Shown here: positions 9,298-17,583 of the stretch, in pieces
How positions within the stretch are numbered: position 1 is the first letter of the stretch
How the letters are laid out: each line of letters opens with the position of its first letter
Source of the DNA: a virus
Virus record (IMG/VR): IMGVR_UViG_3300030107_007203
Span: 17,187-37,509 of that record
Reading direction: 5' to 3' (one strand)
DNA length: 20,323 nt
Notes under the pieces: model-generated
Database searches by the model: none
Seen by the model: only the letters and a program-made list of their open reading frames with translations
What the model was told of the DNA's origin: nothing
Program-made: the position numbers and the translations under genes

Positions 9298-10167
9298 ATG
9301 AGAATACTTGATCTTTTTAGCGGTATTGGTGGATTTAGTTTAGCTGGAGAATGGGCAGGTTATGAAACTGTTGCATTTTGTGAGATTGAACCATTTGCCA
9401 AAAAAATACTAAAAAAGAATTTCCCTAACGTTCCAATCTTTGATGATATACGAAAATTAAAGAGGAGTGATATAAATGGAACAGTTGACGTTATTACCGG
9501 GGGATTTCCCTGTCAGCCCTTTAGTGTCGCAGGACGAAAAAAGGGAACGCAAGATAACCGTGATCTCTGGCCACAAATGTTTAGAGTTGTTAAAGAGTTT
9601 AAGCCCACTTGGATCATTGGTGAAAACGTTGCTAACTTCATCAGTATGGCATTCCAACGCACGAAAACTGACTTGGAAAGTCAAGGCTACGAAGTGCAAC
9701 CATTTATTATACCAGCTTGTGCCGTCGGAGCAAGACATAGACGAGATAGAGTCTGGATTGTGGGCTACTCCAAACACAATGGATCATTTACCACAGAGGA
9801 GCAAAGAGGCTTTGATAAGGCAAGCAACAACAACAAGGAAAGGAAGGAAAAAGCCTTCCAACTTAAGGGAGCAGGTAGACAAGGGAACGATGAGGCTATG
9901 GCCAACACCGACAGCATCAGACAATCGAGACAGGGGGAATTTATCAGACCCTTGTGTAAAAAGAAGGATAGAGAAAGGAAAGCAAATAGGACTGACTACA
10001 GCCGTCAAGAAGACCAAGACTGGTGGAAGTCTGAACCCAACGTGGGTCGAGTGGCTCATGGGGTATCCGATAGGGTGGACAGACTTAAAGGATTAGGAAA
10101 TGCCATAGTTCCACAAGTGGCTTATCAGATATTAAAAGCTATTAAGGAGAAACATAATGAAAATTAA
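9298..10167 (+). CDS. dcm: DNA cytosine-5 methyltransferase, 289 aa
   Basis: Transfers a methyl group from S-adenosylmethionine to cytosine C5 in DNA. Motif I is DLFSGIGGF (5-13); motif IV GGFPCQPFS (68-76) holds catalytic Cys72; motif VI is GENV (108-111). Motif VIII is RHRRDRVW (146-153), and GLGNAIVPQ (265-273) is the motif X region. The target-recognition part between about 155 and 245 is short and basic. All catalytic motifs are intact. No restriction partner is seen, so it likely protects phage DNA from host restriction, complementing ArdA. The start at 9298 follows the terL stop by one base; a longer frame starts inside terL. A second gene is nested inside it (9476-10096). Confidence 0.92.
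   Translation: MRILDLFSGIGGFSLAGEWAGYETVAFCEIEPFAKKILKKNFPNVPIFDDIRKLKRSDINGTVDVITGGFPCQPFSVAGRKKGTQDNRDLWPQMFRVVKEFKPTWIIGENVANFISMAFQRTKTDLESQGYEVQPFIIPACAVGARHRRDRVWIVGYSKHNGSFTTEEQRGFDKASNNNKERKEKAFQLKGAGRQGNDEAMANTDSIRQSRQGEFIRPLCKKKDRERKANRTDYSRQEDQDWWKSEPNVGRVAHGVSDRVDRLKGLGNAIVPQVAYQILKAIKEKHNEN
9461..9467 (+). promoter_or_regulatory. Internal ribosome binding site for the nested gene
   Basis: AGAGGAG lies 8 bases upstream of the ATG at 9476, inside the methyltransferase coding region. It is as good as the ribosome binding sites of the phage's other genes and is the main sequence sign that the nested frame is translated. Confidence 0.7.
9476..10096 (+). CDS. Overprinted protein nested within the methyltransferase gene, 206 aa
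   Basis: This open frame lies wholly inside the methyltransferase gene, shifted by one base, with a strong ribosome binding site. It reads like a genuine protein: VISGHKCLELLKSLSPLGSL (29-48), SVWHSNARKLTWKVKA (56-71), two related blocks LWATPNTMD (95-103) and LWPTPTASD (141-149), and NPTWVEWLMGYPIGWTDL (187-204). I recognise the last block and the LWPTP pattern from many proteins annotated near phage methyltransferases. NPTWVEW is read from the same DNA as EPNVGRVAHGV of the methyltransferase. No function is known to me. A methyltransferase partner or an anti-host protein are guesses. It could also be an untranslated by-product of conserved methyltransferase sequence. Confidence 0.65.
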   Translation: MEQLTLLPGDFPVSPLVSQDEKRERKITVISGHKCLELLKSLSPLGSLVKTLLTSSVWHSNARKLTWKVKATKCNHLLYQLVPSEQDIDEIESGLWATPNTMDHLPQRSKEALIRQATTTRKGRKKPSNLREQVDKGTMRLWPTPTASDNRDRGNLSDPCVKRRIEKGKQIGLTTAVKKTKTGGSLNPTWVEWLMGYPIGWTDLKD

Positions 10168-16740: not shown

Positions 16741-17583
16741 ATGGCGACATCAAGTAGTTATGATTTTGATGTAACAACAAACACCATTATCGAAATGGCG
16801 TATAAAGTTATTAACGTTTTGCCCGAAGGTCAGACATTATCAAATGAGCAGTACGATACAGGGAAAAAGATGCTTAATATGATGGTTAAGTTATGGCGTG
16901 CTAGAGGCGTTTTTCTTTGGAAGCAAGACAATATTACAGTGGCTTTGACAGCTAGTAGCAAAGTTAGAGGTACAGATAATATTGATTATGAATGTATTCG
17001 TAATCATACAGCTGCTGCTGAAAATAAACCGATAACTGGAGCAAAATACAAAACATATTGGAAAAAACTTACTACTGCTGCTGCTGGTAGTTGGGTATCT
17101 GGAACGGCTTATACCAATATTGGACAAGTTAGTTTAGATACTAACATTATTTCATTAGATGATGGGATGGTAAGAGATACAGGTGATGAAATAAACACTC
17201 AAATACACAAGATCACTAGAACGGAATATTTGAATCGCTTTGATTCTAATAATTCTGGTAAACCAATTCAGTATTATTTTAAGCGTGAAACAACACCTCA
17301 ATTATACATTCACCCAATACCAGATTCTGCTACGGACTATGTTTTAGAGTTTGTGGCTAATACATTTCCAGAAGATTTTGATAGCTCAAGTAACAACCCT
17401 GATTTTTTTCAGGAATGGCATGAGCCTTTGGTTTTAGGATTAGCTGAAAGGCTTGCGTTACAAAATGGTGTAACAGGTCAAGAGTTAAAAGATATCCAAA
17501 CAAGAGCATTTCGATCATATGAAGACGCAAAGTATATCGATAACGAAAGTGGGGGATTACAATTTTCCCCACAATTAAGGTAA
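16741..17583 (+). CDS. Head-to-tail adaptor (tail accessory) protein, P22 gp4-like, 280 aa
   Basis: Adaptors sit under the portal and close the DNA channel. The N-terminal helix pair is typical (NTIIEMAYKVINVLPEGQTL, then YDTGKKMLNMMVKLWRARGV). So is the C-terminal region (PQLYIHPIPDSATDYVLEFV; WHEPLVLGLAERLALQNGV, LKDIQTRAFRSYEDAKYIDN). Inserted at about 77-128 is an extra module, IDYECIRNHTAAAENKPITG followed by YWKK, which resembles small carbohydrate-binding-type folds. AAGGAGGACTAG precedes the ATG, which directly follows the previous stop. Length is greater than P22 gp4 (166 aa) because of the insert. Confidence 0.75.
   Translation: MATSSSYDFDVTTNTIIEMAYKVINVLPEGQTLSNEQYDTGKKMLNMMVKLWRARGVFLWKQDNITVALTASSKVRGTDNIDYECIRNHTAAAENKPITGAKYKTYWKKLTTAAAGSWVSGTAYTNIGQVSLDTNIISLDDGMVRDTGDEINTQIHKITRTEYLNRFDSNNSGKPIQYYFKRETTPQLYIHPIPDSATDYVLEFVANTFPEDFDSSSNNPDFFQEWHEPLVLGLAERLALQNGVTGQELKDIQTRAFRSYEDAKYIDNESGGLQFSPQLR

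Follow-up and report, generated by a model that had tools for sequence, protein, structure and literature searches.

The window analysed here is a stretch of 20,323 nucleotides of viral DNA, corresponding to positions 17,187 to 37,509 of IMG/VR record IMGVR_UViG_3300030107_007203. It carries an intact DNA (cytosine-5) methyltransferase gene, which has a terminase-like phage gene on one side and a portal- or adaptor-like one on the other and the product of which is called alpha below. A second open reading frame (9476-10096), the product of which is called beta, lies wholly within this gene (9298-10167) at an offset of +1. The features used in the following are given one per line, where TRD means target recognition and Z values are medians from the reciprocal shuffle test described below.

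9298..10167, plus strand: alpha chain, C5-cytosine DNA methyltransferase catalytic polypeptide of 289 aa with motifs I-VIII and X (PF00145, AlphaFold2)
9461..9467, plus strand: AGAGGAG, Shine-Dalgarno sequence of the nested gene, read directly, with an 8-nt spacer to the ATG
9476..10096, plus strand: beta chain, nested +1-frame gene of 206 aa with an ATG start (phrog_1008; open in all homologues, compared with the synonymous-shuffle expectation)
9476..9757, plus strand: N-terminal region of beta, residues 1-94, overlapping alpha motifs IV-VIII (alpha Z 15.8, beta Z 5.1)
9758..9895, plus strand: TRD module 1 in beta, LWATPNTMDHLPQR...SNLREQVD (in-frame counterpart in Spartoi gp40; beta Z 10.4, alpha Z 1.5)
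9778..10083, plus strand: alpha linker, about residues 161-262, the out-of-frame image of the TRDs and motif IX (predicted disordered, stop-free)
9896..10021, plus strand: TRD module 2 in beta, LWPTPTASDNRDRGNLSDP... (block catalogue; beta Z 5.5, alpha Z 0.8)
10031..10078, plus strand: motif IX in beta, LNPTWVEWLMGYPIGW (hhalign; beta Z 9.1; 59% of substitutions at beta third positions)
10093..10119, plus strand: motif X in alpha, LGNAIVPQV (ordered helix in the model; 58% of differences at alpha third positions in the 3' part)

Alpha is a C5-cytosine DNA methyltransferase (PF00145, Dcm superfamily) by its motifs I-VIII with PCQ and ENV, its motif X and its M.HhaI-like fold. The match to PF00145 covers residues 1-208 (E 2.2e-51), and the score for TIGR00675 is above the cut-off. 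In the AlphaFold2 model residues 1-160 are largely predicted with a pLDDT above 90 and residues 270-288, holding motif X, form an ordered helix; a structural search matched the model to M.HhaI (Z 22, rmsd 2.8, 189 residues). Residues 161-268 have a pLDDT below 50, and alpha thus shows no folded recognition domain of its own.

The nested frame and its start signal

The initial annotation had reported a 206-codon frame inside an intact methyltransferase gene and an internal ribosome binding site (AGAGGAG with an 8-base gap), both of which are found as described, and had called so long a stop-free frame notable. Synonymous shuffling of the methyltransferase codons agrees with the latter, as it gave a mean of 3.7 stops in the nested frame, which was open in only 0.2% of the shuffles. 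Stops in relatives had been suggested as a check; the frame is open in 55 of 55 non-redundant homologues, where 0.06 would be expected from synonymous shuffles. From these two results together, the nested frame is real and not a product of chance.

Conservation of a GGAG-type site before the nested ATG had been suggested as a further check. A Shine-Dalgarno core (at least 5 nt) before the first in-frame beta ATG was found in 37 of 48 loci, compared with 16.5 expected from synonymous resampling. An earlier count of 42/49 was set aside in favour of this one, as the starts had there been chosen by Shine-Dalgarno strength. The RNA fold at the beta start is unremarkable (z -1.6). In the loci L063, L072, L077, L079 and L082 the nested frame is open nearly to the first alpha codon, and beta might therefore begin further upstream there.

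The excess of Shine-Dalgarno cores favours internal initiation over frameshifting. A programmed frameshift, acting instead of or besides internal initiation and fusing alpha motifs I-VIII to the TRDs and motif IX of beta, would fit the constant +1 relation of the two frames, and in relatives of the Andrew and BellusTerra type it would yield a complete I-X chain. We nevertheless consider it very unlikely: beta has a Shine-Dalgarno sequence of its own beyond expectation, a conserved N-terminal region of beta precedes the TRDs, and in the window the fusion would lack motif X, whereas alpha stays open to reach it. No slippery site was noticed.

In a profile search the nested protein matched the PHROG family phrog_1008 over residues 2-204 (E 2.7e-30). 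With the same protein as query, tblastn gave matches in 84 phage records and 12 plasmids, and matches were further found in viral contigs (at least 599 stretches) and in prokaryote genomes of many phyla (347 stretches); the proposal that the nested gene is widespread is borne out. In viral and bacterial scans the nested frame was the +1 frame of a methyltransferase in 180 of 182 loci. As these loci had mostly been gathered using the nested protein as query, a further scan used only the methyltransferase as its seed, and the nested frame was present in all of the best 80 loci, of which 79 were plain and one (L231), on a single viral contig, was a tandem of two alpha/beta units.

The same layout is found in the E. 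coli phages N15 and K1H (annotated 'Mte8-like'), in the mycobacteriophages Nitzel and Rhynn and in cyanophages. Records of Paenibacillus larvae phages (e.g. MH454077, KP296793) have both frames annotated as separate genes, the nested one being labelled variously 'DNA cytosine methyltransferase' or 'hypothetical protein'. In one close relative of the window (L007:679-1470, 76-97% by segment) both frames are shifted by a deletion within TRD1, and TRD2 is ~100% identical to that of the window; this locus is a broken copy, an assembly error or a recombinant. Among the papers searched, none was found that describes this overlap in phages.

Selection on the two frames

Two tests were used for deciding which frame is selected where. 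The reciprocal synonymous-shuffle test was run on 51 homologues and is given as the median Z per region. The codon-position test was made on 56 disjoint close pairs and shows how their differences are divided among positions 1/2/3 of the alpha codons.

In the reciprocal shuffle, the region of beta residues 1-93 has a median Z of 5.1 for beta and 15.8 for alpha. The corresponding values are 10.4 and 1.5 in TRD1, 5.5 and 0.8 in TRD2, and 9.1 and 4.1 in motif IX. The differences at alpha positions 1/2/3 are distributed as.21/.11/.67 upstream of the overlap and.22/.20/.58 downstream of it, and as.31/.16/.53 over motifs IV-VIII, where ordinary enzymes have.31/.09/.59. The distribution is.58/.25/.17 in the TRDs and.59/.22/.18 in motif IX, and a nucleotide alignment without frame bias gave.63/.23/.15 for the TRDs. 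The first position of an alpha codon is the third of a beta codon, and the TRDs and motif IX therefore evolve in the manner of DNA that codes for beta. For motifs IV-VIII the signal is near that of ordinary enzymes, and dual coding there therefore rests mainly on the reciprocal shuffle and the open frame.

The motifs IV-VIII stretch is thus alpha-dominated with a weaker beta signal, and from the first LWxTP to motif IX the amino acids are selected mainly in the nested frame, alpha being merely stop-free. The initial annotation had supposed that both frames might be under selection. This holds only in part: over motifs IV-VIII the beta signal is the weaker one, and in the TRDs the alpha residues are not selected (Z 1.5 and 0.8). 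By the same two tests EPNVGRVAHGV, which had been taken for a conserved methyltransferase part, is largely an out-of-frame image of motif IX in the nested frame.

Constraint at synonymous sites of the methyltransferase, another check that had been suggested, is present as a contrast between a rate of 0.37 inside and 0.71 outside the overlap (105/114 pairs), but it is not diagnostic: ordinary methyltransferases of Streptococcus phages show it likewise, and it was dropped as evidence. In these ordinary single-chain enzymes (L269, L271-L325) the +1 frame is open over part of motifs IV-VIII, and synonymous divergence is low there relative to the 5' end. The third frame (+2), used as a control for shared ancestry, showed some excess in TRD1 and motif IX. 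This is expected because nearly all nucleotides are constrained, and it means that the reciprocal shuffle and the codon-position test carry the argument.

The ordinary Streptococcus-phage enzymes, with their partly open +1 frame and low synonymous divergence, would speak for a nested frame that is a chance or passive image of conserved methyltransferase sequence. We regard this as extremely unlikely, as the substitution periodicity over the TRDs and motif IX belongs to the nested frame, and openness and similarity are far above those of synonymous shuffles. For the C-terminal half of beta a passive image is contradicted by the codon-position tests, while for part of residues 1-94 it could still hold.

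The reciprocal question is why alpha remains open. In shuffles that keep the beta codons synonymous, 3.5 alpha stops are expected across the beta-coded stretch of the window and 0 are seen, and alpha is open across this stretch in 52 of 52 loci, where 0.48 would be expected. The economical reading is that alpha is read through the beta-coded stretch as a linker so as to reach motif X.

TRD modules and motif IX in beta and its relatives

Rothia phage Spartoi gp40 is a single chain with motifs I-VIII, a TRD block, motif IX and motif X in one frame, and PF00145 covers the whole of it. The alpha chain of the window aligns only with its catalytic part (residues 12-220). Residues 95-206 of beta align with residues 226-321, between motifs VIII and X (33% identity, E 5e-10, including TPNTMD...NLRE), which puts the LWxTP blocks at the place of the TRD. 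The two modules of the window begin LWATP and LWPTP. At the C-terminal end of beta, hhalign paired LNPTWVEWLMGYPIGW (96%, E 4e-9) with the LNPEFSEWMMGLPKGW region found in single-chain methyltransferases. This region directly precedes motif X in those enzymes, which is the expected place of motif IX. In the window, motif IX is in the +1 frame and motif X in the +0 frame. Split relatives are also found: in Andrew gp43/gp44 and BellusTerra gp80/gp79 one gene has motifs I-VIII, and the other has LPTP blocks followed by motifs IX and X.

Searches of PDB, Pfam, NCBIfam and PADLOC with beta gave nothing useful (a sub-threshold C2 match with E 0.009 was disregarded), and the beta profile had no sequence match in PDB. 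The AlphaFold model of beta alone was poor (pLDDT 59.9) and had no match in PDB; fold matches of this model were discarded as meaningless. The TRD assignment therefore rests on position and homology.

On this basis beta and alpha most probably belong to one enzyme, beta being the subunit for target recognition and motif IX, and residues 1-94 of beta have a putative role in the start, in folding or in docking on alpha. The initial annotation had offered two readings of the nested gene. A methyltransferase partner is the best of them, given the homology to the in-frame TRD-IX part of single-chain enzymes, and what had alternatively been suggested to be an anti-host factor is most probably this subunit instead. 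As a separate conserved reading frame with its own ribosome-binding site, beta could have been an independent overprinted protein outside the enzyme, such as an anti-restriction or host-takeover factor. This is highly improbable, since single-chain and split methyltransferases have a TRD-IX part homologous to the C-terminal half of beta, and not one of the 182 loci has a stand-alone beta.

By pattern, the block catalogue gives 1-8 TRD-like blocks for most relatives and two for the window. Between loci whose alpha N-terminal domains are less than 50% identical we found 966 pairs of blocks that are at least 70% identical, a count that includes related loci and is not one of independent events; 586 of these pairs are at different array positions. 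Blocks of the same class as the first window module are over-represented, since that class is present in the query.

The frame in which each part is encoded differs between relatives. Motif IX is in +1 and motif X in the catalytic frame for the window, K1H, N15 and Nitzel. In Andrew the +1 frame holds the TRDs together with both IX and X. For MidnightRain and a Megaera plasmid the TRDs are in +1, with IX and X in the catalytic frame, and in Spartoi a single frame holds every part. TRD-like blocks in both frames are found in Derg, PFR1 and Martik.

In Arthrobacter phage MidnightRain gp84 (L266:1001-2455) the blocks in +1 number five by pattern and about seven by eye, and this frame would be a TRD-only partner. 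Blocks first in +1 and then in the catalytic frame are seen in Gordonia phage Derg gp4 (L268:992-2377), PFR1 (L265), Martik (L264) and L267. The Candidatus Megaera plasmid (L092:2301-3323) has motif IX in the alpha frame and three LPTP/FPTP blocks in +1, with stops upstream there; it is a frame-swapped, possibly decaying copy.

The proposed enzyme and known systems

We propose, with a probability of roughly 0.88, that the two overlapping frames of 9298-10167 code for the two subunits of a single DNA (cytosine-5) methyltransferase. In alpha, the catalytic large domain (motifs I-VIII) would be connected to motif X by a disordered linker, an out-of-frame reading of the beta gene. Beta, initiated internally at 9476 from its own Shine-Dalgarno sequence, would supply the small domain, in which the N-terminal region is followed by a tandem of two target-recognition modules and by motif IX. 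The two chains may assemble as a heterodimer like a split M.HhaI, in which beta would pick the target site or sites and alpha would flip out and methylate the cytosine. With two TRD modules, probably two sequence types would be methylated, and the methylation may shield the phage DNA from host restriction.

Lee, Kam and Shaw reportedly found in 1995 that the coding sequence of the M.EcoHK31I small chain lies inside the gene of the large one, in another frame, and beta is likewise encoded in an overlapping frame inside the alpha gene. M.EcoHK31I (YGGCCR) is made of two polypeptides, the larger one having motifs I-VIII, X and a predicted TRD and the smaller one having motif IX (PMC3404938). The window resembles it in having a large chain with motifs I-VIII and X and motif IX on a separate small polypeptide. 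By comparison with the published description of M.EcoHK31I, the window differs in that its TRD modules are in the nested frame and not in the large subunit. These modules number two, with up to eight by pattern in relatives, and the system is phage-borne with no restriction enzyme noticed adjacent. As the TRD is in beta, we treat the window as a variant working like M.EcoHK31I and do not file it as the same type.

M.AquI (CYCGRG) is also split; its small subunit carries motif X as well as motif IX, and each subunit has a portion of the variable region (PMC3404938). The window shares with it the distribution of catalytic and recognition parts over two polypeptides, but has motif X in the alpha frame; the phages Andrew and BellusTerra look M.AquI-like. 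The single-chain phage enzymes with TRDs of the LLPTP type (Spartoi gp40, Propionibacterium phage PFR1, Mycobacterium phage Martik) have homologous motifs I-VIII and IX, and Spartoi gp40 has one TRD block type in common with the window. Unlike the window, they have the TRD and motif IX in the catalytic frame of one chain, although PFR1 and Martik also have TRD-like blocks in +1.

The multispecific methyltransferases of Bacillus phages (SPbeta and phi3T family) have several tandem TRDs in frame with one catalytic domain. The window, with two TRD modules by sequence (1-8 in most relatives), is alike in combining tandem TRDs with one catalytic domain and unlike in having them out of frame. A reading frame out of frame within a phage methylase gene is also known from phage ShiLan, where it is an HNH insertion, a mobile homing endonuclease (PMC11855218), whereas beta would be a structural part of the enzyme.

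With M.EcoHK31I there is thus already an enzyme in which motif IX sits on a small polypeptide of its own. What appears to be new is the recognition domain in the nested frame, the 1-8 exchangeable modules, the wide spread, and the occurrence of modules in either frame among relatives. We lean, if only slightly, towards the view that these genes form a large class of C5 methyltransferases, in phages and prokaryotes, that has gone mostly unrecognised. In such a class the whole specificity function (1-8 exchangeable TRD cassettes, usually with motif IX) would be in the +1 frame of the catalytic gene. The cassettes would recombine between divergent backbones and migrate between frames over evolution, giving nested, split, single-chain and both-frame genes. 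If this is true, a single gene could express catalytic chains with alternative specificity chains.

The usual view of overlapping genes is that one piece of DNA serves two proteins that have nothing to do with each other. In the present case both frames seem to encode portions of a single enzyme, and for the greater part the overlap is apparently not truly dual coding, as one chain would read through the sequence of the other as a linker. The layout is seen in hundreds of phage and bacterial sequences. Annotation pipelines drop the recognition half or misname it, calling it either a hypothetical protein or another 'DNA cytosine methyltransferase', and the targets of hundreds of phage methyltransferases would therefore be unpredictable from the annotated frame. 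Recognising the beta frame would make their specificity testable, and may offer naturally split enzymes with modular target recognition.
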